Shown one piece after another: positions 697 to 58,105 of a stretch of DNA of 64,000 nt. The stretch is from Heliocidaris erythrogramma. Lineage: Eukaryota > Echinodermata > Echinoidea > Camarodonta > Echinometridae. The stretch spans positions 11,088,773-11,152,772 of the forward strand of contig CM046863.1 in the NCBI GenBank assembly GCA_025617745.1, given 5' to 3'. The position numbers and the translations under genes were made by a program. The notes beneath the pieces were generated by a model. That model ran no database searches and was not told the DNA's origin. It saw only the letters and a program-made list of their open reading frames with translations. The stretch's first letter is position 1. Each line of letters opens with the position of its first letter.

Positions 697-772
697 GTGT
701 GTTGATCTGCGTGTCAGAAAAGATAAGGAAACAACGGGTGTGGGGTATTATCAGAGACTACAGAACAGTAAG
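697..772 (+). CDS. TBC1D2B: TBC gene exon a
   Basis: Acceptor CTTTAG before 697, donor GTAAGA at 773. Enters with one base of a split codon, leaves in phase 0. Encodes the stretch ending YYQRLQNSK, which fits the segment just before the TBC arginine-finger helix. Confidence 0.75.
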
Positions 773-3700
773 GTAAGACTTAGATCCCTGTTACACCGGA
801 ATCCTAAGGAGTATTGGGGCGCCCAGAGACTGGTCTCGGGTAGGTTTCAAATCCGGTGTAAGCGCACGAAACCTACCCGAGACCACTTCTGAGCAAACCA
901 GTCCCGGACAACCTAGTGATGTGGTACGAGACTTCTTAGGATCCGGTGTAAACGCTAACCTACCCGAGACTGGTTTGTGCTCTGCTAGCACGTGTGGAAT
1001 GATTGCGTCATCGCAAACACAACGCGCGCTAAATACAGTCCGCCCAAGTACTAAACGTCCACAAACAAAGTATCACTCAAAACCTGTCTCGGGTAAATTT
1101 GCGTAAGTCGGTGTAAACACACAATAGGTCATCTTAAATTCACTTACATGTATTTGTGGGTTCTCATGGGGAATTTGACACCATCCAGGTATTTACATAA
1201 CAAATAACAGTTGTTGTCAATCAAAGAGAATGGACTTTACTTTTAAGACCAACAGGCCTTGTTAAATGCACTGCACAAACCACCCACCACTGCATAAGGA
1301 AATCTCATAAATTTCCCTCACCCTCCCTCAAGATTTGAAGGCAAACTCAAGGAATTTCTGTTGGGACAGAGAGTTTTGCTGCCTGGTGAACCTACATGTA
1401 TACCCGCATTAATTGGTGATTCAACCAAATCTGGTGTCAGCAAATTATGACGCAATGCACAAATTGAAACTGACGACTGTCTGGCTTTAACATGCGTTTA
1501 TTTATTTATTCAAAAAATTTTTTATCACTAGTTATTTATGTCTTTTAAAAGATATGAAGGTTTTTCTACTTTCTAGGAATGTGCAGGAGACCATATGCAG
1601 CAGGCTTGGGTGTCCGCACTCAAAGCCACTTGCAAACTCAATATTTGCTCACCAACTGTCTCCATCAGACTCAACATGACTTTCAGAATCATCTTTTAAT
1701 CATTGAGCTGATCATTTGTATTTAATTCATTATTTACATACATTTGTGTATTTGTTTTGTTTATTGTATTACAGGTGTATATTGTTTATTCCTATATATT
1801 ATTTGTTTCTTTATTCTTTATTTGTTAATGTTTATTTCCTGAAACATACCTCAATTAGATGACAAGTTGGGTATAGAAATTTATTTCTATCTCGTTTTCT
1901 TTCTTTTTTCAGAGCTTCAAGTCGAGTCCAGCAACAAAGCAAATAGAGCTAGACTTGTTGAGAACACTGCCTACCAATAGACACTATGAGAAGATGGAAT
2001 CCCAAGGAGTAAGTTAAAAATAGAGAGTGTTCGAGAGATAGAGAGAGAGAGAAAGAGAGAGCTTGATCTATTGAAAACACTGCCTACAAACAGACACTAT
2101 GAGAAGATGGAATCTCAAGGAGTAAGTTAGAGATGGAGAGTGTTCAAGAGATAGAGAGAGAGAGAGAAAGAGAGAGCTTGATCTATTGAAAACACTGCCT
2201 ACAAACAGACACTATGAGAAGATGGAATCTCAAGGAGTAAGTTAGAGATGGAGAGTGTTCAAGAGATAGAGAGAGAGAGAGAAAGAGAGAGCTTGATCTA
2301 TTGAAAACACTGCCTACAAACAGACACTATGAGAAGATGGAATCTCAAGGAGTAAGTTAGAGATGGAGAGTGTTCAAGAGATAGAGAGAGAGAGAAAGAG
2401 AGAGCTTGATCTATTGAAAACACTGCCTACAAACAGACACTATGAGAAAATGGAATCTCAAGGAGTAAGTTAGAGATGGAGAGTGTTCAAGAGATAGAGA
2501 GAGAGAGAAAGAGAGAGCTTGATCTATTGAAAACACTGCCTACAAACAGACACTATGAGAAGATGGAATCCCAAGGAGTAAGTTAGAGATGGAGAGTGTT
2601 CAAGAGATAGAGAGAGAGAGAAAGAGAGAGCTTGATCTATTGAAAACACTGCCTACAAACAGACACTATGAGAAGATGGAATCTCAAGGAGTAAGTTAGA
2701 GATGGAGAGTGTTCAAGAGATAGAGAGAGAGAGAGAAAGAGAGAGCTTGATCTATTGAAAACACTGCCTACAAACAGACACTATGAGAAGATGGAATCTC
2801 AAGGAGTAAGTTAGAGATGGAGAGTGTTCAAGAGATAGAGAGAGGGAGAAAGAGAGAGCTTGATCTATTGAAAACACTGCCTACAAACAGACACTATGAG
2901 AAAATGGAATCTCAAGGAGTAAGTTAGAGATGGAGAGTGTTCAAGAGATAGAGAGAGAGAGAAAGAGAGAGCTTGATCTATTGAAAACACTGCTTACAAA
3001 CAGACACTATGAGAAAATGGAATCTCAAGGAGTAAGTTAGAGATGGAGAGTGTTCAAGAGATAGAGAGAGAGAGAGAAAGAGAGAGCTTGATCTATTGAA
3101 AACACTGCCTACAAACAGACACTATGAGAAGATGGAATCTCAAGGAGTAAGTTAGAGATGGAGAGTGTTCAAGAGATAGAGAGAGAGAGAAAGAGAGAGC
3201 TTGATCTATTGAAAACACTGCCTACAAACAGACACTATGAGAAAATGGAATCTCAAGGAGTAAGTTAGAGATGGAGTGTTCAAGAGATAGAGAGAGAGAG
3301 AAAGAGAGAGCTTGATCTATTGAAAACACTGCCTACAAACAGACACTATGAGAAGATGGAATCCCAAGGAGTAAGTTAGAGATGGAGAGTGTTCAAGAGA
3401 TAGAGGGAGAGAGAGAGAGAGCTTGATCTATTGAAAACACTGCCTACAAACAGACACTATGAGAAGATGGAATCTCAAGGAGTAAGTTAGAGATGGAGAG
3501 TGTTCAAGAGATAGAGAGAGAGAGAAAGAGAGAGCTTGATCTATTGAAAACACTGCCTACAAACAGACACTATGAGAAAATGGAATCTCAAGGAGTAAGT
3601 TAGAGATGGAGAGTGTTCAAGAGATAGAGAGAGAGAGAAAGAGAGAGCTTGATCTATTGAAAACACTGCCTACAAACAGACACTATGAGAAAATGGAATC

Positions 3701-6700
3701 TCAAGGAGTAAGTTAGAGATGGAGAGTGTTCAAGAGATAGAGAGAGAGAGAGAAAGAGAGAGCTTGATCTATTGAAAACACTGCCTACAAACAGACACTA
3801 TGAGAAGATGGAATCTCAAGGAGTAAGTTAGAGATGGAGAGTGTTCAAGAGATAGAGAGAGAGAGAGAAAGAGAGAGCTTGATCTATTGAAAACACTGCC
3901 TACAAACAGACACTATGAGAAAATGGAATCTCAAGGAGTAAGTTAGAGATGGAGAGTGTTCAAGAGATAGAGAGAGAGAGAAAGAGAGAGCTTGATCTAT
4001 TGAAAACACTGCCTACAAACAGACACTATGAGAAAATGGAATCTCAAGGAGTAAGTTAGAGATGGAGAGTGTTCAAGAGATAGAGAGAGAGAGAAAGAGA
4101 GAGCTTGATCTATTGAAAACACTGCCTACAAACAGACACTATGAGAAAATGGAATCTCAAGGTGTAAGTTAGAGATGGAGAGTGTTCAAGAGATAGAGAG
4201 AGAGAGAGAAAGAGAGAGCTTGATCTATTGAAAACACTGCCTACAAACAGACACTATGAGAAGATGGAATCCCAAGGAGTAAGTTAGAGATGGAGAGTGT
4301 TCAAGAGATAGAGAGAGAGAGAGAAAGAGAGAGCTTGATCTATTGAAAACACTGCCTACAAACAGACACTATGAGAAAATGGAATCTCAAGGAGTAAGTT
4401 AGAGATGGAGAGTGTTCAAGAGATAGAGAGAGAGAGAAAGAGAGAGCTTGATCTATTGAAAACACTGCCTACAAACAGACACTATGAGAAGATGGAATCC
4501 CAAGGAGTAAGTTAGAGATGGAGAGTGTTCAAGAGATAGAGGGAGAGAGAGAAAGAGAGAGCTTGATCTATTGAAAACACTGCCTACAAACAGACACTAT
4601 GAGAAGATGGAATCTCAAGGAGTAAGTTAGAGATGGAGAGTGTTCAAGAGATAGAGGGAGAGAGAGAAAGAGAGAGCTTGATCTATTGAAAACACTGCCT
4701 ACAAACAGACACTATGAGAAGATGGAATCTCAAGGAGTAAGTTAGAGATGGAGAGTGTTCAAGAGATAGAGAGAGAAAGAGAGAGCTTGATCTATTGAAA
4801 ACACTGCCTACAAACAGACACTATTAGAAAATGGAATCTCAAGGAGTAAGTTAGAGATGGAGAGTTTTCAAGAGATAGAGAGAGAAAGAGAGAGCTTGAT
4901 CTATTGAAAACACTGCCTACAAACAGACACTATGAGAAGATGGAATCTCAAGGAGTAAGTTAGAGATGGAGAGTTTTCAAGAGATAGAGAGAGAGAGAAA
5001 GAGAGAGCTTGATCTATTGAAAACACTGCCTACAAACAGACATTATGAGAAGATGGAATCTCAAGGAGTAAGTTAGAGATGGAGAGTGTTCAAGAGATAG
5101 AGAGAGAGAGAAAGAGAGAGCTTGATCTATTGAAAACACTGCCTACAAACAGACACTATGAGAAGATGGAATCTCAAGGAGTAAGTTAGAGATGGAGAGT
5201 TTTCAAGAGATAGAGAGAGAAAGAGAGAGCTTGATCTATTGAAAACACTGCCTACAAACAGACACTATGAGAAGATGGAATCTCAAGGAGTAAGTTAGAG
5301 ATGGAGAGTTTTCAAGAGATAGAGAGAGAGAGAAAGAGAGAGCTTGATCTATTGAAAACACTGCCTACAAACAGACACTATGAGAAGATGGAATCTCAAG
5401 GAGTAAGTTAGAGATGGAGAGTGTTCAAGAGATAGAGGGAGAGAGAGAAAGAGAGAGCTTGATCTATTGAAAACACTGCCTACAAACAGACACTATGAGA
5501 AGATGGAATCTCAAGGAGTAAGTTAGAGATGGAGAGTGTTCAAGAGATAGAGGGAGAGAGAGAAAGAGAGAGCTTGATCTATTGAAAACACTGCCTACAA
5601 ACAGACACTATGAGAAGATGGAATCTCAAGGAGTAAGTTAGAGATGGAGAGTGTTCAAGAGATAGAGGGAGAGAGAGAAAGAGAGAGCTTGATCTATTGA
5701 AAACACTGCCTACAAACAGACACTATGAGAAGATGGAATCTCAAGGAGTAAGTTAGAGATGGAGAGTGTTCAAGAGATAGAGGGAGAGAGAGAAAGAGAG
5801 AGCTTGATCTATTGAAAACACTGCCTACAAACAGACACTATGAGAAGATGGAATCTCAAGGAGTAAGTTAGAGATGGAGAGTGTTCAAGAGATAGAGGGA
5901 GAGAGAGAAAGAGAGAGCTTGATCTATTGAAAACACTGCCTACAAACAGACACTGAGGAAATGGAATCCCAAGGAGTAAGACAGAACTGGAGAGATACAG
6001 AGTTAAATGTAGAGAGATAGAAGGAGAGTGAGAGAAAGAGATAGTTATAGAAGGCTCTTTTGACAACATTACCTACAAACAGACACTATGAGAAAATGGA
6101 ATCGCAAGGAGTAAATTAGAAAGCAGCGATAAAGAGTGTAGACGGACAGGGAGAGAGACTGGGAGATGAAGACAGAGATAGAGATAGATGAAGACTATTG
6201 GAAAGGTTGAGATAGAGAGAGAGATTGAGGAATTAAAAAATGTGGAAAAAACAGAGCGAAAGATGAAAGAAGCGACAGTGGTGTACCTGTAAAATGGACA
6301 GACTATGTGACATATAGAAAGATAAAGGATTATGTAAAAGATACACAGAATGAGAGATTCATATAAACCGTGGAAATGCAGAAGGCAACAGCATAAAAAA
6401 GCAAAAGTGTAGAAGGAGTGAAAATGAATAAAAGGAAACTAACATAATGATACAAATTGGTTTCTATCTTTTTACTTTCCTTTTTTTTTTCTTCTATCTT
6501 GTTCTATAATGTCCTTCAGATCCCCAAGTTGAGAAGAGTTCTACTTGCATACAGTGTACACAACCCAGCCATTGGATACTGCCAGGTAGAGTGTATGAAA
6601 ACGACTACCTTTGTTCTCTTCCTCCTCTTCATTCTTCTTCTTCTTCTTTATCTTCTTCTTTTTTTCTTCTTCTTCTTCTTTTTTTCTTCTTCTTCTTCTC

Positions 6701-9700
6701 CTTCTCCTTCTCCTTCTCCTTCTCCTTCTTTTTCTTCTTCTTCTTCTTCTTTTTTTTCTTTTTCATCTTCTTTGTCTTTTCATCTTCTTCTTCCTCTTCC
6801 TACTCTTTGTCGCTGTTGTCGTCTTATTCTTCATTTTGACTCCACATGCCGTGGTTTTTAATGTGTTACTTATTCTCAGAAATGTGATTCTACATGTATT
6901 ACAAATGCATTGATTTAGCTGTCTTAAATAAATAATTTATTTAGAAAAACAAAAATATGAAGTAAGCAAAGTGAATGTTTTTAATACAACATTTTACTGG
7001 TTGGTTGCTTTTTTTCAGGGACTGAATCGAGTAGCAGCCATCGCTTTGCTCTATCTAGAAGAAGAAGATGCCTTTTGGTAAGTTCAAGTTCATTAAATTG
7101 ATTTTTCAACGTATTTATTTATCTACTGTAGGTACATGTATTCTAACATTTATACAGTGTGAATGACTCTCTACTTTTGAGGAATAGTTCTCAGGTTTTG
7201 ATATGTTATCATTGGTAGTAATTTTTCAGTGTCCATCTTGATTAAAGCATTCTTTCTTGATATCAAACCTCGCAATTCATTAACCTTCTTTGTAATTCCT
7301 GAAAAAATATATGCTTTTCTTTGTCCAAAGGCCCTACATGCTCTTTGGCTTGATTTTGGCGATTTGGATGGCCTGCACCATTGAAAATGTTAACCATACT
7401 ACCTTATATTGTTTTGTACACAGGTGTCTAATAGCCATTGTGGAGTACATTATGCCCATGGATTATTGCAGTAAGACGTTGATTGGTTTCTCACACAGAT
7501 CAGAGAGTCTTCAGTTATGTTCTTCTATTTCATCATAGTTTCTCTAAACCGAACTATGTTGTATCGTTTTGTACACAGGTGTCTAATAGCCATTGTGGAG
7601 TACATCATGCCTATGGATTATTACAGTAAGACGTTGATTGGTTCCCAGACAGATCAAAGGGTCTTCAGGGAGCTCCTAGCAGAGAAGATTCCAAGACTTC
7701 ATGCTCACTTTGAGGAATACTCGTAAGTAATGCATCGGGGGGGTTTCATCAAGTGTCTTGTCAGTGAATTTTACCGACAAATTTACTCTCAGCCATTCAG
7801 ATGCAAGGATTTCAGTAGCTTATAACAGTTATTGCAACCTGGGCCCTGGGGCCTGGGGCCCATTTCATGAAACTTGCTTTCACTGACAATTTACAATAAC
7901 TGTTATAAGCTACTGAAATCCTTGCATCTGATTGGCTGAGAGCAAATTTGTCGGTAAAAATCACTGACAAGACACTTGATGAAATGCCCCCTGGTGACTA
8001 TATGCTTTCAAGTTAGGGTTATATGATCAGGGTAGTGGCAAGACCCCATGCATATATCCACACTGGACCATTAAGAATGGGAGGGGGGTGGGGCAGATTT
8101 TAGACCAAATTACTTTCCAATGACAGTGTCTTCAGGGAACTTGTAGCAGAGAAGATTCCAACACTTCATGCTCGCTCTGAGGAATACCTGTTGTAAACTT
8201 GGCAGCTAGGGTTTTTATGATGAGGGGAATTGTAAGACCCATAGATATATACATGATAAACCATTTCGAATGCTGGGGGTGGGAGGGGGGAGGCTGTTGG
8301 ACCAAATGAATTTCCAGCAAGTTAGCCCCAATTTTGCCAAAAAGCTAAAAGTCTTTGAAGAAAATGAGGTCTTTGGATGTTGAATTTTTTAGTGAGAGGC
8401 TGAAAAAAGGTCATCAGAATTAAAAATTTGATTTTCCCCACATTCAAAATTTTTGTTGGCAACTTGCCAACACAGTTATACAAAAATCAAGATTTGCTGG
8501 CAGTAAATGTTTAATGTGAGGATGTGACTTCATTGTTCTTTTGATTTAGAATCGACCTATCGCTGGTAACCTTCAACTGGTTTGTGACCTGCTTCTGCGA
8601 TAATATACCAGCAGAGGTGAGTATTGGGTTTGAAGAGGGTGTCACTGTTGATTCATTTAATACATGGATTTTGAGCAACTAAATAAGACACATACATGTA
8701 CATACCCAAACAGCCTTCTCGTAAATACATTGATTCTAAACGGCGTAAGCAAAACTTGAACCAAAACTCTCTGAATTTACCCATTTTTTTTTCAGCCTGT
8801 GTCATGGTTTCTTGCATTACCCTGTTGTGTTTGTTGCCATATATTTGTTGAGGAAATTTCACTAAGCATTAAAAACCTTAAATTGGCATTGTGTTTAAAG
8901 GTTCTAAATCGATGGGTTTTTTTCCCCTTATGAATTGGATTTTTGGAAAACGTTAGACATGAGTCTCCATTTCATAAAACGGGAGCATTTCATCAAGCGT
9001 TTTTACCAACAACTGTTATAAGCTACTGAAATCCTTGCATCTGATTGGCTGAGAGCAAATTTGTCATAGAAATGGGGCACTTTTTATTGATGACAAGTTT
9101 TATGAAACAGGTTCCTGTTCCTGGGAAGGGAAAAGCGAATTCAATCATTATAACGCTCGGATATCTCCTCCCGCTACAACTGTTCATGATGTGCAGTTGG
9201 ACCATTGCATATAGTTTCCCCGTACTCTTTTACAAAGAGAGCAGTCGGTTCTTAATATGCAAAGGGCGGGCCTCTCCTACACGCAGGATTTTCATTCAAA
9301 ATCCTATTCAAGGTACAATTAATTATCTGAATGCATAAAATCTTGGCTTCTGGGTTGTGAACATGTATACATATAATACTACTCCATGTAACTAGGTGTG
9401 CTTATAACCGTGCCTAATCTTAACCAGATTTGAATTCAGATACTAATTTATTTTCACTGAAATTTTTCTTTCTTTCTAAGACCATGCTACGAATTTCGAT
9501 TTCACTTTCAATCTTTTTACTGATTTATTTTTTACTTTTTTCTTTCTTTCTCTTGAAGACCATGCTGCGGATCTGGGACACCTTTATGTCAGAAGGCAAC
9601 AAGGTTCTCTTCAGGTACTCCCTAGCAGCTTTCAAGATCTTTGAGGAGGAACTTCTGAGACAGAATGACTATCTGAGGATCTTTGCTTTCCTACGACGCA

Positions 9701-12700
9701 TGCCAGAGATGCTCACAGATGTACAGAGACTCACACAGGTACGGTACCGTCGTGAAATGTAGGGGCGTTTAAAGTCTGTTAACCAACATTTGCTCTAGCA
9801 ACAGAGAAATGGGGTAAGGATTATGGTTGTGATTTGACTTTCAAGATAAAGTTGAGTTCTGGTCATGAGATTGAATTGTGAAAGGAACCATCGCCAAGCA
9901 ATTGGAAAAGGTTGATTATATATAGCACATAAGAACGGGTGCATGCTGTAAGGTTTTGGAATCACCAAAATGATAAGAAATTGCTTCAGTCCTGCTAAGA
10001 GTCACATGCACTGCACACAGAAATGTGTACATGGGCCTACACACAAATGTTCAGCCTGAACATTTCAGCTGTTTCTTGTTATATTTTGAATGTGAGGGTA
10101 TTTGAAGAGAATTCATTTTAAGGAGACATTTCTACTTTGATAATCTTCCAAACTGACATAAAAGTAACAAGAAAGCTCACAAATTATTTTTTACCTTTCC
10201 CAGAACTCAACATTTCATTTAAGTCCAGTATAGAGGGTTCTCACGGCAGCCATGCTGGAGGACATAACAATAAAAACCTCTGCATCAGACTATGAAATGC
10301 CATTGTTGTCATGGTCCAGTGCACAGGTTTTTATTGATGTGTCCTCCAACATGGCTGCTTCTGGGAACCCTCTACACTGTTAGGTCTTGGGTTGAAGGTA
10401 ATGGTACATTTAACCCCTACCATGCCGTGGGCGGCAAATCCCGCCCAAAAATTTGAGTGTTGAACATTTTGTTTAGGCTCAGAATAGCTTTAAATTTTTT
10501 CCTCATACAGAAACCTGTGCCTTCAATATAATGCCTATTCCTATGCAATATATCTTTGCCCAGTTTGCTCAAGAAAAATCTCATTGAAAGTTAATATTTA
10601 AAAGAGAATGAAACTCACAAAAATTGGCTGATAATCACATGGAAAATTGTCAGCCTGTTCAAAATATCTTGAAAATACTCATATTTGATTACTCAGTAAG
10701 AAGAAAAATCTCTTTAAAGGAGAATTAACCTCAAACAATAAAGACGATAGTGTTCAAAGGTGTTATTTATTCCTACTTGTTAGACTATATGGCTTCGCGT
10801 CAACATATACGAGATCGATACGAATCAAGGTTTTCTGAGCAAAATGTATCATCTGCTAGCAATATGTATCGTCTGCTAGCAGCACATGGGGCTGCCATTT
10901 TGTTTATGTGTACAAGAAGATTTCCTTAATCCAAATGCCCAATTGCCCTTTTCAAAATTAAAAACCCATTTGAGATTAAAAATATAGAATAGATATGTCA
11001 ATTTATTTTTAAACTGAAGATTTCCTTATATATTTCTGTTGAAAATCGACATTCGCTTAATAGAAATCTATTTTCTCGATACTGGACTAATGGGACGGAG
11101 CAAATTAATTCAAATTTTATGGATACTTCTTCCCTGAGCATCTATAGCGGCAAACTATGCATTCACCTGCTTTCGGATAATGGACTTGAAAAGTCAGAAT
11201 GCATGCTGCATATATTATGTTCTGCTCTGTTTGGCAAACCCAAGAAAATAGATTTTTGTTAAGCAAAACCAGACAATTTAAAAGTATCATTATAAAGATT
11301 TAATTTGTATAATACATGTAAACACCCACTTTATATTTTCATCACATATGGGATTTTAGGTAATGAAGAAAATCAATTTAGGTTTTGGATTCAAAATATC
11401 TTCCTGACTGGAACATTTCTCATGTACAACTCCAAATCAGCAAGAAAATGGCAGCCCCCATGAAAATGAGTAGGAGACGATACCGGGTGTTGGAATATCT
11501 TTATTTATACCCTTTTCTGATATATTATTAGAAAATGATTTAGGCCAATAAGTAGGAATATATTACACTTCCAATATAAGTAAATTTGTAATCAGGGGTT
11601 AATTCTCCTTTAAATTTTGCAGATTCCTTGCCAGATTTTATCCCATGGGGGCTGCCATTTTGAGAACATAGTCGTACATGTCAATTTACCTGTACACAAT
11701 GGATATTATGTTGCATTATAATGAATAGCTACAGTGTATTGTACAACTAAAGCCACCAATGCAAAATGGCAGCCATCTTGGTACCCCCATTGTCTCACAC
11801 AGGTGATATCTAAGAGCAGTTGTAGGTCTTTGTCACTTCTTTGAAGAATTGACAAACCTTTTGACCAATCCTGCTTAACAAAAGAAACAGTTGAACCAAA
11901 TATCTTGACACAAATTGGTTATATGACAGGATAAAAGTATCTCCATTTAAATGTACATGACTACAAAAATGGTTTATTATAAGAAAACCCAGTGTCATGC
12001 ATTCCACAGGTGATCATGAGTGTCATGTAGCTAGTGTATAGGTCAGTGGGTATCTCACAAATAGAACTGCTCTGACATTACTTTGTAAAGAAAATGGCAG
12101 CCCCCATGGGATAATGTCTAGCAAGGAAACTGCAACTCTTTGAGACACCGATCTCCTTAAATAATCAAATAGGAGTAATTTCAAGATATTTGTAATAGGC
12201 TGACAATTATCTACATGATTATCGGCTAATGTGTGTTGCCTTTCATTCCCCTTTAACTCTTGAAAGTTCAGTTTTGATAATTGCTCAAAAATCTGTTGGC
12301 ATGGAAGGGGTTAATGTATGTGTGTGATAGTGACTAAGCAGCATGTGTCAAAAAAACCGCCATTAAAACCACTACTTATGAAAAAAAAAATGCATCTGAC
12401 ATTCTGACACTATGAACATGACGGACAAAGAGAGTGGACAAAATAAACAACCCCTCGTTCTACCCTTCACAATGGTTCTGGTAATACAAAGAACATCCCT
12501 TCACTGCTATTACAACACATGTATGTGAAAATATGTAGAACTGGGGAGCGTTGATCATCAAGTGTTTTGTCAGTGATTTTTACCGACAACTGTTTTAAGC
12601 TACTGAAATCCTTGCATCTGATTGGCTGCGAGCAAATTTGTTGGTAAAATTCACTGACAAAACACTTGATGAAACGCTCCCCAGGTGTCACATGCAAATG

Positions 12701-14645
12701 CACCTGTTCTACTTATTTCATGTAGTATCAGTGAAGGGATGTTCTTTCGTCTACCAGAGCAATTGTGGAGGGTAGGATGAGGAGTTGCTCATTTTGTCCA
12801 CTCTCTTTGTCTGTCATGTTCATAGTGTGACCAATTAAGAATAATCTACATGTATCAGGGATCTGTAAATAGCTAGTTTGGCCATGCATGCATGAAATAT
12901 TCACTATGAACATGGCAAACAAAGGTGTCACATGCATATTCACCTGTTCTACTTATTTTACATAATAGCAATGAAAGGATGTTCTATTGTCTACCAGAGC
13001 AATTGCGGAGGGTACAATTTGGAGCTGTATATTTTGTCCGCTCTCTTTGTCATCGTGTTCATAGTGATTGTTGTTCTGGGCAGCGTTTCATCACATTGTC
13101 ATACATGTAAGTACAAGTTTGCCGACATCCCATTGAAACGCGTGTATTAAAATTGACATGCGTTTTAACGGGATGTCGGCGAAATTGTACTGATGACAAT
13201 TTGATGAAACGATGCCCAGACTCCTTTGTATAGCTGCAGTAGTTACAATGAGAATGTTATTTGCATGACTTATTGGTAATCTCCTTGAAAACAAAAGAAT
13301 GCTGATATTGCAATTAGGGTCATGACCCTTCATGTTAAGCGTATTGTTGTTTGTTTCTATCAGATTGCCTTTGATGAGCTGAACCCGTTTCCAAGGAGAC
13401 ACATCAACAACAAGAGAACCATCCACAGAGCACATGTCAAGGTCAGTTTTAGACTCGTTTAACCCCTTGACTGCTGAACTCTCTCATTCCCATAGGCTTA
13501 ATACAGAAGCCACACAGCTCTCGTAGGAAATGGGTTAAACAAAGAAAGATCTATGTAGTTCATTTCATATCTTTTCCAACTTACAATCGATGTTGATAAT
13601 CGTTTTGCTCACATACGTGTACAAGGCAGAGCTGAAGAAGTTTGTGTAATATTCATCATGGAATGCAATAAAGGTACTATCAACATCGATGGATCACATG
13701 AGATTATAACATACTGTACATGATATTGATGTGAATGTTAGCTAATGGCTATTTTCCTCTGGGGTAGTTTCCCTAGGGAGGTATTCATTCAATAGTAATT
13801 GTCCTGGGTATGGATACTCTTCCTTCAATACTAGATAATAATAATATTAAATCATTATAATAATAATAATCCGTTCTTGTTTAGTGCATATCCCATTATG
13901 CCCTTGAGCAAGGCATTTTATCTGCATTGCTCCTCTCCACCCAAGTGTATGATGGAGTGGAGTGGAGTGGAGAATGTGCACTGTAATGTGCAGAACCACA
14001 GTTGAATACAGTTACTGGGGTAATAATTCTGTAAGCGCTTTGGTCGGTTGCATTTTAACTGGTAACGCTGCATAAGAAACGGCTATTATTATGATATAAC
14101 ATTCCAATGCGGTTCAAAAAAGCTTTGGAAATTATAATCCTGGTTTTAGCTCCGCAATCAGCGCATGATGCATTTCAAGGAATAATCCTACCATGGGCCC
14201 ATTTCATAAAACTTGTTATCAATAACAAGTTGCAATAACTGTTATAAGCTACTGAAATTCATGCATCTGATTGGCTGAGAGCATATTTGTCGTAGAAATG
14301 TGGCAGTTGTTACTGATGACAAGTTTTATGAAACGGGGCCCAGGTACCCATTACCTCACATTGGTCAAGTGTCTTGCAGAAGTACATTAGTGCTGCAGCA
14401 AATTCGAACCTCATTCCCTGTGGTTCACAGTCCAGGGACTAATATCCCCTCGACCAAAACACCTCTGCGTTCTCTGTGTTCCCATCTTCCTTTCTTTTCT
14501 TTTTTTTCTTTTATAGCAACAACTGGATGAGCTGGAAGCAATCCGAGCAGAGTTTGTCCCGCGCCATTCACAAAACGGAGATGAGCTTGCCAGCGATGAG
14601 GAGGAAGATTATGACCAGGTAGAGGCATTAGGAGGGGCTTCTTAA
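697..14645 (+). CDS. TBC1D2B: TBC-domain Rab GTPase-activating protein, TBC1D2B-like (3' nine exons)
   Basis: Nine exons with matching phases: 697-772, 1913-2008, 6520-6585, 7019-7077, 7579-7722, 8550-8616, 9559-9738, 13364-13441, 14517-14645, about 297 residues, stop TAA at 14643-14645. They encode most of a TBC domain and the C-terminal tail. TBC proteins stimulate GTP hydrolysis by Rab GTPases on membranes; both fingers are visible: arginine finger IELDLLR (exon 1913-2008) and glutamine finger YCQ (end of exon 6520-6585). The tail ELEAIRAEF ... ELASDEEED resembles the end of vertebrate TBC1D2B (from memory), which favours 2B over TBC1D2/Armus. PH and coiled-coil parts expected upstream are outside the window. 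Odd features: an array of about 35 partial copies of exon 2 in intron 2, a duplicated decoy exon in intron 4, and degenerate duplications of the last exon's end. Family sure, paralogue less so. Confidence 0.85.
789..953. repeat. Degenerate fold-back element
   Basis: Inverted ends: TTACACCGGAATCCTAAG near 790 pairs with CTTAGGATCCGGTGTAA near 936-952. Inside, GTCTCGGGTAGGTTT and AAACCTACCCGAGAC form a second inverted pair, and related CTCGGGTA words recur to about 1093. Confidence 0.55.
1100..1912 (+). other. Intron, nothing recognised
   Basis: AT-rich intron between exons a and b. A good pyrimidine tract (1892-1910) precedes the acceptor AG at 1911-1912. Confidence 0.5.
1913..2008 (+). CDS. 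TBC1D2B: TBC gene exon b (arginine-finger exon)
   Basis: 96 bp, phase 0 at both ends, acceptor TTTTTTCAG, donor GTAAGT at 2009. Carries IELDLLRT, the IxxDxxR arginine finger that completes the Rab active site. This exon is the source of the tandem array that follows immediately. Confidence 0.85.
2009..6120 (+). repeat. Exon-derived minisatellite, about 35 copies of 109-116 bp
   Basis: From about 2040 to 5960 a unit of about 113 bp repeats about 35 times (CTTGATCTATTG recurs at about 2061, 2176, 2291 and so on to 5918). Each unit holds the last 68 or so bases of exon b, the donor GTAAGT, and a (GA)n-rich spacer. In frame, most units read ELDLLKTLPTNRHYEKMESQ followed by the donor and a TAG. 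Differences between copies are few: TCT/TCC, AAG/AAA, and spacer GA number. Two degenerate copies end the array at about 5955-6115. The spacer upstream of each partial exon is purine-rich and lacks a polypyrimidine tract, so the copies look unable to act as normal acceptors, although every one keeps a consensus donor. Confidence 0.95.
6121..6519 (+). other. Purine-rich intron remainder
   Basis: GA-rich degenerate continuation of the array spacer to about 6260, then ordinary intron; pyrimidine tract 6475-6518 precedes the acceptor. Confidence 0.5.
6520..6585 (+). CDS. TBC1D2B: TBC gene exon c (glutamine-finger exon)
   Basis: 66 bp, phase 0. Encodes KLRRVLLAYS ... IGYCQ. The YxQ motif is the glutamine finger of TBC domains. 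Acceptor TTCAG, donor GTAGAG (weak). Confidence 0.88.
6606..6805 (+). repeat. (CTT)n-type polypyrimidine microsatellite
   Basis: About 200 bases of nearly pure C/T with TTC and CTCCTT runs. Long open frames here are low-complexity artefacts. Confidence 0.9.
7019..7077 (+). CDS. TBC1D2B: TBC gene exon d
   Basis: 59 bp, encodes GLNRVAAIALLYLEEEDAF plus two bases of a Trp codon; acceptor TTTTTCAG, donor GTAAGT. Matches the conserved GLN-AAI-LL block that follows YCQ in TBC domains. Confidence 0.88.
7395..7517 (+). pseudogene. Partial duplicate (decoy) of TBC exon e
   Basis: Sequence with the acceptor TTGTACACAG and the first about 90 bases of exon e occurs here, about 155 bp before the true copy. 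It reads CLIAIVEYIMPMDY, then an indel after KTLIG breaks the frame, and no donor follows. It is a truncated tandem duplicate with an intact acceptor. Confidence 0.85.
7579..7722 (+). CDS. TBC1D2B: TBC gene exon e
   Basis: 144 bp. Completes the Trp codon from exon d, then encodes CLIAIVEYIMPMDYYSK ... FRELLAEKIPRLHAHFEEY; donor GTAAGT. Matches the VEYIMPxDYY and QRVF.ELL...LP.L..H block of TBC1D2-type domains. Confidence 0.88.
7737..7991. repeat. Fold-back family A, inverted double copy
   Basis: Two copies head to head: the left arm starts TTTCATCAAGTGTC and the right arm ends GACACTTGATGAAA. The shared core contains AGATGCAAGGATTTCAGTAG. Further copies at 8981, 12543, 14195, 27806 and 27936. 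Confidence 0.8.
8550..8616 (+). CDS. TBC1D2B: TBC gene exon f
   Basis: 67 bp, encodes IDLSLVTFNWFVTCFCDNIP; acceptor TTGATTTAG, donor GTGAGT. This is the conserved WF..F....P helix of the TBC fold. Confidence 0.88.
8981..9111. repeat. Fold-back family A copy
   Basis: Begins near CATTTCATCAAG, carries the core TAAGCTACTGAAATCC and GATTGGCTGAGAG, ends TTTTATGAAACAGG. Confidence 0.7.
9466..9497 (+). repeat. Short duplicate of the acceptor side of exon g
   Basis: CTTTCTTTCTAAGACCATGCT... here copies the junction at 9541-9575 (acceptor plus first bases of exon g), offset by about 80 bp. Confidence 0.65.
9559..9738 (+). CDS. TBC1D2B: TBC gene exon g
   Basis: 180 bp, phase 0. Encodes TMLRIWDTFMSEGNKVLFRY and on to LTDVQRLTQ; donor GTACGG. 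RIWD.F..EG..V.FR is a TBC-domain hallmark. Confidence 0.9.
9841..10222. repeat. Fold-back family C copy 1
   Basis: Starts with AAGATAAAGTTGAGTTCTGG and ends CCAGAACTCAACATTTCATT, an inverted pair. The interior (CACATGCACTGCACACAG, TTTGAAGAG) is shared with 17185-17573 and 40068-40358. Confidence 0.7.
10231..10374. repeat. 144-bp fold-back element
   Basis: TAGAGGGTTCTCACGGCAGC at the left pairs, with a few mismatches, with GCTGCTTCTGGGAACCCTCTA at the right; GCCATG.TGGAGGAC continues the stem. Confidence 0.75.
10409..12317. repeat. 1.9-kb palindromic element with another inside
   Basis: Left arm from CATTTAACCCCTACCATGCC; right arm ends GGCATGGAAGGGGTTAATG. Arms also share ATCTTGAAA/TTTCAAGATAT and GCTGATAATCACATG-type words. 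The middle carries the family B fold-back at 10712-11614. Confidence 0.65.
10712..11614. repeat. Fold-back family B copy 1 (about 900 bp)
   Basis: Ends TTTAAAGGAGAATTAACCTC and GGTTAATTCTCCTTTAAA. Inside, near each end, are ATCGTCTGCTAGC and GGCTGCCATTTT in opposite orientations. Shorter relatives lie at 41886-42607 and 42985-43640. Confidence 0.75.
12406..13070. repeat. Palindrome with extra direct copy, interrupted by a family A insertion
   Basis: A segment at 12406-12540 (CTATGAACATGACGGACAAA ... GAACATCCCTTCAC) recurs inverted at 12684-12830 and again at 12923-13070. The family A element 12543-12682 sits in the centre. Confidence 0.7.
12543..12682. repeat. Fold-back family A copy
   Basis: GGGGAGCGTT at the left and AACGCTCCCC-type end at the right, with TCAAGTGTTTTGTCAGTGA / TCACTGACAAAACACTTGA arms; same core as 7737-7991. 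Confidence 0.8.
13078..13217. repeat. 140-bp fold-back element
   Basis: Left end GGGCAGCGTTTCATCA, right end TGATGAAACGATGCCC; the arms also carry GCCGACATCCC and GGGATGTCGGC. Confidence 0.8.
13364..13441 (+). CDS. TBC1D2B: TBC gene exon h
   Basis: 78 bp, encodes IAFDELNPFPRRHINNKRT and HRAHVK; acceptor TTTCTATCAG, donor GTCAGT. The NPFP.R.I.N.R motif closes the TBC domain in TBC1D2 proteins. Confidence 0.9.
13458..13538. repeat. Short interspersed repeat with GTTTAACC ends, copy 2
   Basis: Same family as 311-391: shares CCCATAGGCTTAATACAG and a GGGTTAAAC end. Confidence 0.55.
13845..14456. repeat. Interspersed repeat (SINE-like), interrupted by a family A element
   Basis: After an (ATA)n run, words such as CCGTTCTTG, TTTAGCTCCG, GCATTTCAAGGAA, AATCCT and GGTACCCATT follow in the same order as at 41283-41580. 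Family A (14195-14341) interrupts it between AATCCTACCA and GGTACCCA. Confidence 0.65.
14195..14341. repeat. Fold-back family A copy
   Basis: GGGCCCATTTCATAAAACTTG at the left, CAAGTTTTATGAAACGGGGCCC at the right, with the common core. It is inserted in the older repeat 13845-14456. Confidence 0.8.
14517..14645 (+). CDS. TBC1D2B: TBC gene terminal exon i
   Basis: Acceptor TTTATAG; encodes QQLDELEAIRAEF, then GDELASDEEEDYDQVEALGG and stop TAA (14643-14645). A donor-like GTAGAG at 14619 would allow a further exon, but none is seen downstream, so a terminal exon is preferred. The acidic tail is typical of TBC1D2B. Confidence 0.8.
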   Translation, partial: QQLDELEAIRAEFVPRHSQNGDELASDEEEDYDQVEALGGAS

Positions 14646-15500
14646 AATGAACAATCTTCCAGGAAGTCAATCTCGTAAACCTTTCAGCATATCTACCAGT
14701 GAAATCAGCCGATGACTTTTGACCTTCAAAGAGTTCCACTTTAACGTTTGAAGAGCATGACCAGGAAGAGGCACAGGAGGAGCTTCTTGGAATGAACAAT
14801 CCTGCCGGAAATTGCTGATAAACAGTGACCTTTGAATAATCCTCTACTGAGATCTGCAGACAAACTTTGAAATTTGAAAACATTACTACAAAGACCTACA
14901 TGTACTGATGTACAGTGTACCTGTGTTTGGGATGTAACTCTGGCCAGCCATGACCAGGTAGAGCCATTAATACACGGAGCTTCTTGATGTGCAGGAAGTC
15001 CTTGTTAAGAAATGCCAGTTTTGAATAATCCTCTAGCAAGATCTACATTCATCTACATGGAGCATGATCTTGTGATGAAAGATGACCTTGTAATGTACCA
15101 ATACTCAAGTACATTCTATTTATGAACTCTGGCAAGTAGAGGCATTAGGAGGAAGTTATCAGTTCAAAGAGTCCTACACACTCGTTTTTGCAACGAACTT
15201 ATACCTTTGGACAATCTTCTCATAAAATATGGTGATGAAGGATGACCTTCAGAGAGTTATGTACCAAGACGTACTGATGGAGCTTTTGCCATGACCATTG
15301 ACTCACTTGTGGCCCTGCTCTAACCAGGTGAAGACAATGGGAAAAGCTTTTTAATATGAACAATCCTGCAGGACATTCTTCTGAAGAACCGTAACCTTTG
15401 AACCATCCATTAGCAAGATCTACATACTTTATATAACCTATGGAGGTTACAATCAAGTCAGGGCATTAGGAGGAGCTTTTAAATATGAACTGTAGAAAGG
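14611..15500 (+). repeat. Degenerate duplications of the terminal-exon end in the 3' flank
   Basis: The stretch GACCAGGTAGAGGCATTAGG with following GAGCTTCTT...ATGAACAAT recurs in decayed form at about 14758, 14950, 15127, 15325 and 15452, each followed by partly similar text (AATCCTC, AAGATCTACAT). Spacing is irregular, 127-198 bp. Confidence 0.65.
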
Positions 15501-17573: not shown

Positions 17574-17660
17574 CCATCAGCATCTTGTAATTAAATATCA
17601 TAATTGATAGGATTGAAGTAAATTGAATATATCATAAAGAAAATGTGAGAAAATTACAAT

Positions 17661-17731
17661 GCCCCGACCGGGATTCGAACCCGGGACCCTGGATTACATG
17701 ACCAGTGCTCTACCAACTGAGCTATCCAGGC
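17661..17731 (-). tRNA. tRNA-like sequence (Thr-UGU position), minus copy of an inverted pair
   Basis: 71 bp cloverleaf: acceptor GCCTGGA/TCGGGGC (mismatched), D arm GCTC/GAGC, T arm CCGGG TTCGAAT CCCGG intact. Anticodon loop CATGTAA puts UGU (Thr) at 34-36, but position 33 is A, not U, and the 31:39 pair is T:T. Probably a decayed or element-borne tRNA copy. Confidence 0.5.
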
Positions 17732-17841
17732 TCATTGGGTAGGCCATTATAGCGTACAATGGAAATTGGTATGGATGTACCCCGTACGCTCGATGGAAAG
17801 AGAGGGGCTATATGTGAGATTGTTACTTTGCTTCGACGGGA

Positions 17842-17912
17842 GCCCGGATAGCTCAGTTGGTAGAGCACTGGTCATGTAATCCAGAGTCCCGGGTTCGAAT
17901 CCCGGTCGGGGC
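17842..17912 (+). tRNA. tRNA-like sequence (Thr-UGU position), plus copy of an inverted pair
   Basis: Same as the minus copy at 17661-17731 but acceptor GCCCGGA/TCGGGGC with one G:G mismatch. A box GTGG-less but TAGCTCAGTTGG and B box GGTTCGAAT are good. Same unusual A33. Both copies lie in a palindrome whose outer arms (17631-17661, 17912-17942) are about 30 bp inverted repeats. Confidence 0.5.
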
Positions 17913-17959
17913 ATTGTAATTTTCTCACATTTTCTTTATGATACATCAGCATCTTGTTA

Positions 17960-47376: not shown

Positions 47377-47892
47377 CTAGTTTATCGAATTGAAAAACTA
47401 GGATTATCGAATTGATAAACCGGGTTTTTCAAAAAACCTATGATATCGGTCGATATTCAGGGTTCTGATAAACCAGGATTATCAAATCGAAAAACTAGGT
47501 TTATCAAATTCGATAAACTAGATTTATCAAATTCGACAAACTAGATTTATCAAATTCGACAAACTAGGTTTATCAAATTCGATAAACTAGGTTTATCAAA
47601 TTCGATAATCTAGGTTTATCAAATTCGATAATCTAGGTTTATCAAAATAGTTGTCAAAAAATTAGATAATGTAGGTTTATCGAATTCGATAATCTAGGTT
47701 TATCGAATTCGATAAACTAGGTTTATCAAATTCGATAAACTAGGATCATTATCAAATTCGATAATCTAGGTTTATCAAAATAGTTGTCCAAAAATTCAAT
47801 AATCTAGGTTTATCGAATTTGATAATCTAGGTTTATCGAATTCGAAAATCTAGGTTTATCGAATTCGATAAACTAGGTTTATCAAATTCGAT
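47377..47892. repeat. Left array of TTTATCGAATTCGATAAA palindromes
   Basis: Units of about 23 bp, CTAGGTTTATCGAATTCGAT and variants (AAATTCGATAA, AATCTAGG); each unit is a near-perfect palindrome. The left edge has a variant segment GATATCGGTCGATATTC with GGTTCTGATAAACCAGG. Confidence 0.9.
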
Positions 47893-49010
47893 GGTAACCC
47901 CGAATATCACGTGATTATCGCATGCGCATGCGCACTTAGTCCCGCGCGCGCGGGGCGGCTCGGGGCATGCGCAGCCGGCACCTACTCGCACGCCGGAATA
48001 ACTTCGGGTTTTCTCATCCAATCATTACCCCGTTCTTCTTATTATTTATGAATATACATGAAAATAATTACCATACCATCCTCTTTCATGTAATATATAT
48101 TTCAGCGTGCAAAAAATACATTAAAATATTAAATATTATCCTCAAACTGACTCATATTTTTCTTTGAAAATACACATATTATCAAGGTGATTTTTATAAG
48201 CTGATATTAAAAATCTCCATCTTATTAAGGCTAATTTAAATTATATTTTGTTTTTTTTTTAAGGTTAGGTCTGTCTAGCTGACATAAACAGCTACAAATT
48301 AAAACAAAAACAATCACAAACATTAAAGGCTCATAAATACATTTACTACAATTACAAACCGTACGTGACTAATTGGAACAGAGTTTATATACAAAACATT
48401 TATAATAAAAAAAAAATGTATAACAGAGTTTAATATTTGCTAATTAATGTTAATTGTTTACATGACAATCAGGCTACTTGTAAAGATTTAATATGCACGC
48501 AAAATAATATAATTATTTATAATATAATTCAACTAGAATTCTTTTGAACAATATTTTTTCCACGAGCCCCGAGAAAACACATCCACTCGCCCTAATAACC
48601 CATGCATATACTCTATAGAGTTAACATAAATAGCACCGATCATGCTGTTAAAATCCAAATAAGGCCTATGTTTAAAGCCGATTAGCGAAGAATCCTGGAA
48701 CTAAAATTTGTAAGTGTGATTAATTTTGATCAAGAAAATATCCCAAATAATCAAATTAAACAAAAAATAAATCATGAAAAACCTGAGGATTTTCATAAAT
48801 AAGCGTTCTGTAAAGAGTACAAAAATAGTTGGACTTTTTGTAATCGATTACGCTCAATACCTCTCAGAATGTTATTCACATGATCCCAGGACCATTGCTA
48901 CGTTCATCACGATTGGGTAAAGGTGCCAACACGAAAGTTAAATTAGCTACCACAAAAACCAACACTGCCATGTTCTTCGCCGCCATTTTTGCACTTTCGA
49001 CATGTCATGT
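47893..49010. other. Single-copy core between two palindrome arrays
   Basis: About 1.1 kb, not repetitive in this window. Its left 100 bp are GC-rich with ATCACGTGAT (47908-47917) and a TGCGCATGCGCA site (47923-47934), like a small CpG-island promoter. The rest is AT-rich. Right edge holds the small ORF 48876-48986. Confidence 0.6.
48876..48986 (-). CDS. Possible first exon or small ORF with signal peptide
   Basis: Minus-strand ATG at 48984-48986 in an AAAATGGCGGC context (Kozak and YY1-like). Reads MAAKNMAVLVFVVANLTFV, then LAPLPNRDERSNGPGIM and TGA; a GTGAAT donor overlaps the stop. The hydrophobic stretch at residues 6-21 looks like a signal peptide with cleavage near the LAP. No downstream exon was recognised. 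It may be chance. Confidence 0.3.
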   Translation of the reverse strand: MAAKNMAVLVFVVANLTFVLAPLPNRDERSNGPGIM

Positions 49011-49832
49011 GATCAATTCGATAAACCTAGATTATCGAATTCGATAAACCTAGATTATCGAATTCGATAAACCTAGATTATCGAATTCGATAATCTAGGT
49101 TTATCAAATTCGATAAACTAGGATTATCAAATCGAAAAACCTGTGATATCAGAACCCCGAATATCGACTGATATCACAGGTTTTTTGATAAACCAGGTTT
49201 TTCGATTTGATAATCCTAGTTTATCAAATCGAAAAACTAGGTTTATCAAATTCGATAAACTAGGTTTATCGAATTCGATAATCTAGGTTTATCGAATTCG
49301 ATAAACTAGGATTATCAAATCGAAAAACCTGGTTTATCAAAAAACCTGTGATATCAGTCGATATTCGGGGTTCTGATAAACCAGGATTATCAAATTTGAT
49401 AAACCTAGTTTATCGAATTGAAAAACTAGGTTTATCGAATCGAAAAACCAGGATTATCAAAAAACCTGTGATATCGGTCGATATTCAGGGTTCTGATAAA
49501 CCAGGATTATCAAATTTGATAAAACTAGTTTATCGAATTTAAAAACTAGGTTTATCGAATCGAAAAACCAGGATTATCAAAAAACCTGTGATATCGGTCG
49601 ATATTCAGGGTTCTGATAAACCAGGATTATCAAATTTGATAAACCTAGTTTATCGAATCGAAAAACTAGGATTATCAAATTGATAAAAACCGGGTTTTTC
49701 AAAGAATTCGATAAACTAGGTTTATCGCTTGATATTCGGGGTTGTTGTTGAAAAACTAGGTTTATCAATTCGATAATCTAGGATTCTCGGCGAAAAACCT
49801 AATTTATCGTCGATAAACTAGGTTTATCGAAT
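49011..49832. repeat. Right array of palindromic units
   Basis: Same 23-bp palindromic units as 47377-47892, plus four segments of AAACCTGTGATATC, (A/G)GTCGATATTC and GGGTTCTGATAAACC at about 49139, 49344, 49461 and 49580; the 49139 one is itself palindromic. Confidence 0.9.
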
Positions 49833-56990: not shown

Positions 56991-57120
56991 TACAAAATAT
57001 ATTAATATATATATATATATATAAATGTGAAAGAAATTGCGAGATTAACGTTGCGTAGCTCAATCAAAGTTCCCCAGAGCTGTCCTCCCTTTTTGAAATT
57101 TTTGCAAAGGCTGAAAAAAT

Positions 57121-57191
57121 GTCTCCGCCGGGAATCGAACCCGGGTCGTTGGCTTAGAACGCCAATGCCTTAACCACTAGACCACGGAGAC
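57121..57191 (-). tRNA. tRNA-Arg (anticodon UCU), copy 1
   Basis: 71 bp; acceptor GTCTCCG/CGGAGAC perfect; D stem GTCT/AGGC; anticodon arm TTGGC GTTCTAA GCCAA with U33 and anticodon TCT; T arm CCGGG TTCGATT CCCGG. No introns. It lies in a repeated unit, so it may be a mobile tRNA copy, but the fold is intact. Confidence 0.75.
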
Positions 57192-57521
57192 GGGTTAGTG
57201 GTTTCGGCGACACCAGATTCAATTGACCGACAGATTGACAAATCCTCAACCTTACTAATTAATTCCTTTGTCGGGGGCAGGTGAGTTTTGAACAAAAATT
57301 TCAAAAAGGGAGGACAGCTCTGGGGAACTTTGATTGAGCTACGCAACGTTATTCTCGCAATTTCTTTCACATTTGTATTTATTTCCACGAGATTTGCCAA
57401 AGTTGTTGTATATGTTATTTCCTTACACTATATATATATATATATATATATTAATTAATAAGGTTGAGGATTTGTCAATCTGTTGGTCAATTGAATCTGG
57501 TGTCGCCGAAACCATTAACCC

Positions 57522-57592
57522 GTCTCCGTGGTCTAGTGGTTAAGGCATTGGCGTTCTAAGCCAACGACCCGGGTTCGATTCCCGGCGCAGAC
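57522..57592 (+). tRNA. tRNA-Arg (UCU), copy 2, acceptor mismatch
   Basis: Same sequence as copy 1 except CGCAGAC in the 3' acceptor strand, which breaks one pair. Confidence 0.65.
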
Positions 57593-57834
57593 ATTTTTTC
57601 AGCCTTTGCAAAAAATTTCATAAAGGGAGGACAGCTCTGGGGAACTTTGATTGAGCTACGCAACGTTATTCTCGCAGTTTCTTTCACAATGTATTTATTT
57701 CCACAAAATTTGCCAAAGCTGTTGTATATGTTATTTCCTTACAAATAATGCTATTAATAATAATTTATTCTAATGTATACATGTATTCAAAGCATTCGCT
57801 TGGATCCAGCTGAGGCACTAGCGGCTTGTCTTGT

Positions 57835-58105
57835 TCAAAAACTCATCTGCCCCTGACAAGGGGAATTAATTAATAAGGTTGAGGAATTTGTCAATCTGTC
57901 GGTCAGTTGAATCTGGTGTCGCCAAAACCACTCACCCGTCTCTGTGGTCTATTGGTTAAGGCATTGGCGTTCTAAGCCAACGACCCGGGTTCGATTCCCG
58001 GCGGAGACATTTTTTCAGCCTTTGCAAAAAATTTCAGAAAGGGAGGACAGCTCTGGGGAACTTTATTTGAGTTACGCAACGTTATTCTCGCAATTTCTTT
58101 CACAA

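Follow-up and report, generated by a model that had tools for sequence, protein, structure and literature searches.

Tandem repeats that run across an exon-intron border, termed mirages, have been described from amphioxus in Adh3, in the globins BflGb6 and BflGb9 and in troponin C, with similar but imperfect mirages in PGBD5; the two haplotypes of BflGb6 carry 6 and 3 units, and mirages are said not to disturb splicing (PMC3087553, PMC3902484). A minisatellite that supplies multiple splice donors is known from human IFI6 (6-16) (Turri et al. 1995, as cited in PMC4526556), and the citing passage reports two downstream repeat units as used donors, giving isoforms. In the Sp185/333 genes of the purple sea urchin, microsatellites bound tandem duplications and are suggested to promote instability; the paper employs the term 'GA microsatellite' 49 times (PMC3091723). 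We analysed a stretch of 64,000 nucleotides from the sea urchin Heliocidaris erythrogramma (contig CM046863.1, positions 11,088,773 to 11,152,772, forward strand; hereafter the window), in which a minisatellite made in part of exon sequence follows one exon, exon b, of a TBC1D2B-like RabGAP gene.

Our reading of this sequence, to which we give a probability of about 0.7, is that the array is a donor-side mirage, probably born by a local duplication spanning the exon-intron border, spliced at the donor of exon b, and composed of copies that would exchange sequence with the end of the exon.

The array at the border of exon b

The C-terminal exons of the TBC1D2B-like gene occupy the first 15 kb of the window on the plus strand. 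Nine of them (a to i) have AG/GT borders and an open frame throughout (297 codons), and their joint translation matches the Pfam RabGAP-TBC domain with 197.4 bits; the closest protein comes from Lytechinus variegatus (TBC1D2B-like; 98% identity across 98% of the query). Guided by that protein, we placed 24 exons over about 50 kb; guide residues from about 650 to 838 had no match in this mapping, and the 5 kb just upstream of the window consist of N. The authentic exon b is intact: the frame from a to i is open, urchin proteins match it, and in the annotated proteins of three other urchins (P0121, P0122 and P0133) exon b joins exon c directly.

The host intron of the array extends from 2009 to 6519. 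The unit had been described in a first-pass annotation, made from the letters alone, as the 3' two-thirds of exon b, its GTAAGT donor and a GA-rich spacer, and both alignment and Tandem Repeats Finder (TRF) agree: the repeat crosses the exon-intron border, taking in the last 63 of the 96 nt of the exon, the donor and the intron start. TRF delimits it at 1958-5994 (period 113, 35.6 copies) with a score of 7398, the runner-up in the window scoring 729. The core is homogenised, its 34 units being on average 98.6% identical in pairs (97 alignment columns, of which 11 vary), and neighbouring units (98.7%) are hardly more alike than other pairs; copies 35 and 36, at the edge, are decayed in both exon part and donor. 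The 33 core spacings are of 115 bp (14), 113 bp (14), 109 bp (3) and 111 bp (2). The earlier count of about 35 near-identical units that keep the donor is sound for the core, while the reading frame, said to be kept as well, is kept within the exon fragment only.

Counting the donor of exon b itself, 35 of the 44 GTAAGT in the 64 kb lie within 2009-6120, and no other TRF array (period at least 20, at least 3 copies) in the window or the 45 kb upstream has GTRAGT in its unit. A search of the 1.06-Gb genome with window positions 1958-2190 returned 47 matches. The best candidates of this search and of one for TBC paralogues were scored; among them, the whole unit occurred at this locus only. A dispersed repeat found no support, the other matches being short and lying in the last bases of the exon and the GA-rich spacer, and a paralogue as source of the unit was rejected, the scored TBC matches elsewhere being at most 51% identical. 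Two other candidates were also set aside. A further decayed copy at 6121-6519 was weak (1% of 300 shuffles equalled its score and its exon part was not significant), and the longest frames found for an open frame through the array were of 46 amino acids on the plus strand and 87 on the minus strand.

Donors and acceptors were scored in bits with a weight matrix. Of the eight donors of the gene (5.1-11.5 bits), only one is weaker than that of exon b, which scores 5.9 bits. The annotation had expected about 36 equivalent donors, and indeed 33 array donors score 5.9 bits, like that of exon b, and one scores 5.7; the context is GGA/GTAAGTTA, as in exon b, in 33 of the 34 core copies and GGT/GTAAGTTA in the other. 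Identity of the donor 8-mer in all 34 core units is no proof of donor selection, because with 11 of 97 columns variable only about one change would be expected there. The claim that the spacer offers no usable acceptor also held. None was found within the array, where the best AG reaches 0.9 bits in the core, a score that 32% of AG sites elsewhere in the window match or exceed, and 2.2 bits at 6083 in copy 36, against 6.9-14.3 bits for the nine real acceptors of the gene. Array units thus differ from mutually exclusive exons, in which each copy has an acceptor of its own.

Reading through its own donor (GTA AGT TAA), exon b gains V, S and a stop, and the core donors read GTA AGT TAG. The frame closes after 34 codons regardless of the later donor used, and the unit spacings, except the two of 111 bp, are not multiples of three. 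Since the stop lies two codons beyond the donor, extension by array units would truncate the TBC domain; of the suggestion that exon b might be extended by whole units, what is left is a possible truncating isoform. The functional proposals of the annotation thus find partial support at best.

Table 1. Exons, array and local copies in the first part of the window (positions are those of the window)
Feature	Position	Strand	Basis
Exon a of the TBC1D2B-like gene	697..772	+	AG/GT borders, open frame, protein match
Exon b, encoding SFKSSPATKQIELDLLRTLPTNRHYEKMESQG with the IxxDxxR arginine finger	1913..2008 (96 nt)	+	AG/GT borders, frame, protein match
Minisatellite: intron start after exon b, then 36 copies of a unit made of 63 nt from the exon b end, donor and GA-rich spacer	2009..6120	+	TRF, alignment
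Core array of 34 copies spaced 109-115 bp; first intron base of their donors from 2122 to 5863	2059..5863	+	alignment
Decayed copy 35, donor 5976 GTAAGA, 2-nt loss in exon part	5914..6028	+	alignment
Decayed copy 36, donor 6111 GTAAAT, arginine finger replaced by Thr	6060..6120	+	alignment
Exon c, next acceptor after the array, with YxQ (IGYCQG)	6520..6585	+	exon mapping, acceptor scoring
Copied intron end with about 90 nt from the start of exon e, 88.6% identity; spare acceptor (copied exon begins at 7424)	7392..7514	+	alignment
Exon e	7579..7722	+	borders, open frame, protein-guided mapping
Copied 3' part of exon e, donor absent, 88.9% identity	8125..8187	+	alignment
Copied intron end with the start of exon g, 78% identity; spare acceptor (copied exon begins at 9481, in the frame of exon g)	9441..9494	+	alignment
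Exon g	9559..9738	+	borders, open frame, protein-guided mapping

A probable coding footprint in decoy copies

Exon b encodes IELDLLRT, which has the form IxxDxxR given for the arginine finger of TBC domains in PMC11101121. All 12 aligned proteins, that of the window among them, have this arginine, and no copy keeps it: the position holds Lys in the 34 core copies and copy 35, and Thr in copy 36. Exon b and the core consensus differ at 8 of 60 nt, with seven silent changes and one amino-acid change (P 0.0006-0.001 under full neutrality); a block of 38 nt around the donor has no fixed differences (P 0.03).

Elsewhere in the genome, three AGGTAAG with gaps of 80-110 occur at 527 places and the reverse of this pattern at 392; for gaps of 50-80 the numbers are 517 and 440. 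Donor arrays are thus only weakly enriched genome-wide, and with such a background an AGGTAAG array alone proves nothing, as most need not be related to splicing. We examined 15 arrays beyond that of the window (L026, L030, L033, L043 with L044-L045, L046-L051 and L053-L057), accepting an array as a donor mirage when an exon with an acceptor stays open up to the first donor. Seven were accepted (L043, L046, L047, L053, L054, L055 and L057), a proportion that is not a rate because L046-L051 and L053-L057, selected from among the places listed for the AGGTAAG patterns, were picked by eye, several since their units looked coding. L026, L030, L033, L048, L050 and L051 were dropped for want of a convincing exon and L056 for having two open frames; L049, whose array begins near the end of the retrieved stretch, was left out of the count. 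L048 (C7:12043500-12045300) is GA-rich, with a make-up like that of the window spacer and ten AGGTAAG mostly 102-112 bp apart; no adjoining exon was seen.

Two of the accepted arrays match Pfam domains. L046 (C5:35919700-35921200) follows an exon of another TBC gene (25.8 bits, cut-off 25.2) and adds three donors, whose exon parts differ from the exon by silent changes only; L055, with 17 donors spaced 77 bp, follows an exon in which Pfam recognises the glycogen-debranching central domain (40 bits against a cut-off of 27). The others (L043, L047, L053, L054 and L057) were accepted on frame and acceptor, their Pfam matches being absent or below cut-off; among them, L043-L045 has a transmembrane-like exon and 21 donors exactly 97 bp apart. 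On the strength of these exons and frames we accept that exon-border donor arrays recur in this genome.

The seven accepted arrays and that of the window were combined in a test of the decoys: distinct variants among the copies alone were classed in the frame of the exon and compared with neutral simulation. The eight arrays together hold 18 silent and 15 amino-acid variants. Under neutrality 24.7 of the 33 would on average change an amino acid, and none of 5000 runs fell to the observed number. Test segments one codon shorter give 17 silent and 15 amino-acid variants with 22-24 amino-acid variants expected (0 of 2000 runs, P 0.0015 and P 0.006 at transition weights of 2, 4 and 6, respectively). 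Both wrong frames give 8 silent and 24 amino-acid variants, as by chance (P >0.55). Per site, 18 of about 107 silent positions vary in the decoys and 15 of about 370 others; the first intron bases vary at 16 of 104 sites, or at 9 of 80 without the window array, in which one 2-nt deletion raises the number. Of the fixed differences that separate exon from copies in the eight arrays, nine are silent and one changes an amino acid. Because the depletion is frame-specific, we infer from these 32-33 variants that exon ends and decoys exchange sequence and that selection on the exon leaks into the array. The simple neutral satellite that the first-pass annotation had named as the alternative would then be an incomplete account.

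Several observations weigh against exchange and leakage. The comparison of exon b with the core becomes P = 0.06 if half of the differences arose on exon b, which leaves that pair, taken alone, suggestive. Exon b departs from all 33 units compared (one deletion-bearing unit excluded) at 11 of 95 sites, and so no exchange between exon b and the array has occurred since the last homogenisation of the core. At 7 of 13 sites, silent divergence between exon b and the units is higher than divergence in the adjoining intron, which differs at 4 of 37 (Fisher P 0.003; P 0.012 once one non-fixed site is removed). This mosaic of high silent and low intron divergence fits no simple model, and we cannot explain it fully. 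Taken singly, the window array has four silent and two amino-acid variants among its copies, and in L047 (2 silent, 5 amino-acid), L055 (0 and 2) and L057 (3 and 3) depletion is slight or absent. Among the copy variants are two stops, one of them in L055; with the arrays that lack depletion, they indicate that the copies are hardly translated units under strict selection. Transitions outnumber transversions by 26 to 6, a bias beyond the strongest simulated weight. Finally, choosing the other arrays was largely a matter of inspection by eye, several being taken for their coding-looking units, and all had been found through an intact AG/GTAAG.

Origin of the array and competing explanations

A local tandem duplication over the border of exon b would leave the real exon whole and create an intronic decoy consisting of exon end and donor; a duplication of this kind may survive precisely because the real exon is left whole. 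Of the 24 mapped exons, 5 have a local same-strand copy, as do 59 of 300 control windows drawn at random from non-exonic parts of the region, so local tandem duplication is common here and not aimed at exons. The decoy could then have been amplified by slippage or by unequal exchange between the GA-rich spacers. In exon definition an exon is closed by its nearest donor. Splicing most likely takes place at the donor of exon b, since the exon would be set by its acceptor and nearest donor and the array has no acceptor able to build a new exon; use of a later donor would yield an early stop. The real exon end would in effect be unit 0, and unequal exchange or conversion would over time swap exon end and copies, with amino-acid changes filtered whenever a copy lineage occupies the exon position and silent changes persisting. 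We advance more tentatively, at somewhat less than even odds, the extension that the exon end is an exchangeable member of the array, that the decoys bear a purifying footprint, and that the array is a reservoir able to rewrite the exon end, mostly silently but here also with a version that lacks the catalytic arginine.

The rival that survives best, although we judge it unlikely, is a plain neutral minisatellite without exchange with the exon, the silent bias being chance plus mutation bias. The small size of single arrays, three of the eight with little or no depletion, and the strong transition bias speak for it. Against this, the depletion is specific to the exon frame at all three transition weights, absent in both wrong frames, and persists when TBC1D2B is excluded (14 silent and 13 amino-acid variants, P 0.0025-0.01).

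We see a distinctly smaller chance that the array is a poison device, in which transcripts using array donors retain at least one unit, meet a stop and are degraded, so that array length tunes TBC1D2B output. By the vertebrate rule, which may not hold for urchins, a stop far upstream of the next junction, such as use of a later donor would leave, is a target of nonsense-mediated decay, and GA-rich sequence resembles exonic enhancers. The array offers 36 extra donors, 33 of them matching the real one over 11 nt, the stop in the frame of exon b comes two codons beyond its own donor, and the spacer is GA-rich as enhancers are. The donors, however, are no more invariant than expected in so homogeneous an array, and amphioxus mirages are reported to leave splicing undisturbed (PMC3087553, PMC3902484).

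Slightly less credible again is a fossil alternative exon: a second exon b, once in use, that coded for a GAP-dead TBC domain with a Lys finger and was later truncated and amplified. The units kept the peptide while diverging at 7 of 13 silent sites, and their sole fixed amino-acid change falls on the catalytic arginine that all 12 aligned proteins share. Yet neither the first 33 nt of exon b nor an acceptor is present in them, the intron flank differs at just 4 of 37 sites, no isoform was seen, and a change at one codon in 20 is a post hoc match. Least probable of all is a platform that binds U1 in bulk, shielding the long intron from early polyadenylation or titrating U1: the 35 GTAAGT in 4.1 kb (with that of exon b) and the lack of AATAAA or ATTAAA inside the array, two lying shortly after it (6232 and 6427), would suit it, but the length of the intron is due mainly to the array itself and there is no sign of U1 binding or donor selection.

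Local copies in the gene and relation to known systems

Other parts of the gene also carry local copies (Table 1). The spare acceptor before exon e is as strong as the real one (8.4 vs 8.2 bits), and the copied exon start (7424-7514) has five silent and two amino-acid changes and a one-base insertion. The spare acceptor of exon g scores 10.4 bits vs 11.6 for the real one; if used, it would add 26 mostly hydrophobic codons, in frame, to the TBC domain (window 9441-9572). One of the upstream exons has a 39-nt copy nearby. Downstream of the last coding exon, its end and the sequence that follows it are repeated (14604-15490; five local matches, the four listed being 76-95% identical). Farther along the window, two blocks based on 23-bp repeats lie about 1.1 kb apart (47467-49703), with units resembling each other's reverse complements, and five Rfam tRNA matches form an opposite-strand pair and a group of three (17660-17913 and 57120-58009).

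Compared with the described systems, the urchin array resembles Sp185/333 in that sea-urchin microsatellites flank tandem duplications; the Sp185/333 units are gene-sized, belong to an immune family and do not lie at an exon border. With IFI6, a functional precedent, it shares a minisatellite at a donor that offers several donors. On our own reading of the citing passage, later donors in IFI6 keep the protein open; here a stop follows two codons beyond the donor of exon b, and later donors would truncate the protein, unlike the IFI6 isoforms.

The closest likeness is to the amphioxus mirages, and the exon b array is a large member of this class, known previously from lancelets. In both, the unit comprises part of an exon, the border and part of the intron, the real exon is intact, and the core is homogenised with the edges excluded. 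Amphioxus mirages sit at the 5' or the 3' border, and the urchin gene has a donor array as well as acceptor-side copies at exons e and g. The urchin array differs in its host, in its 36 copies as against the 6 and 3 of BflGb6, in its GA-rich spacer and in the test of coding constraint applied to the decoys; a literature search limited to open-licence PMC found no echinoderm mirage. New here are the recurrence in one genome, the amino-acid depletion in decoys and the 36 copies without the catalytic arginine. Introns with ten or more near-equal donors are natural tests of how the spliceosome chooses a 5' splice site. If true, leakage of exon selection into intronic decoys would be a new and testable consequence of such arrays, and it suggests a measurable route by which introns may feed variation back into exons. 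Mirages are here extended from lancelets to a sea-urchin genome in which such arrays recur.

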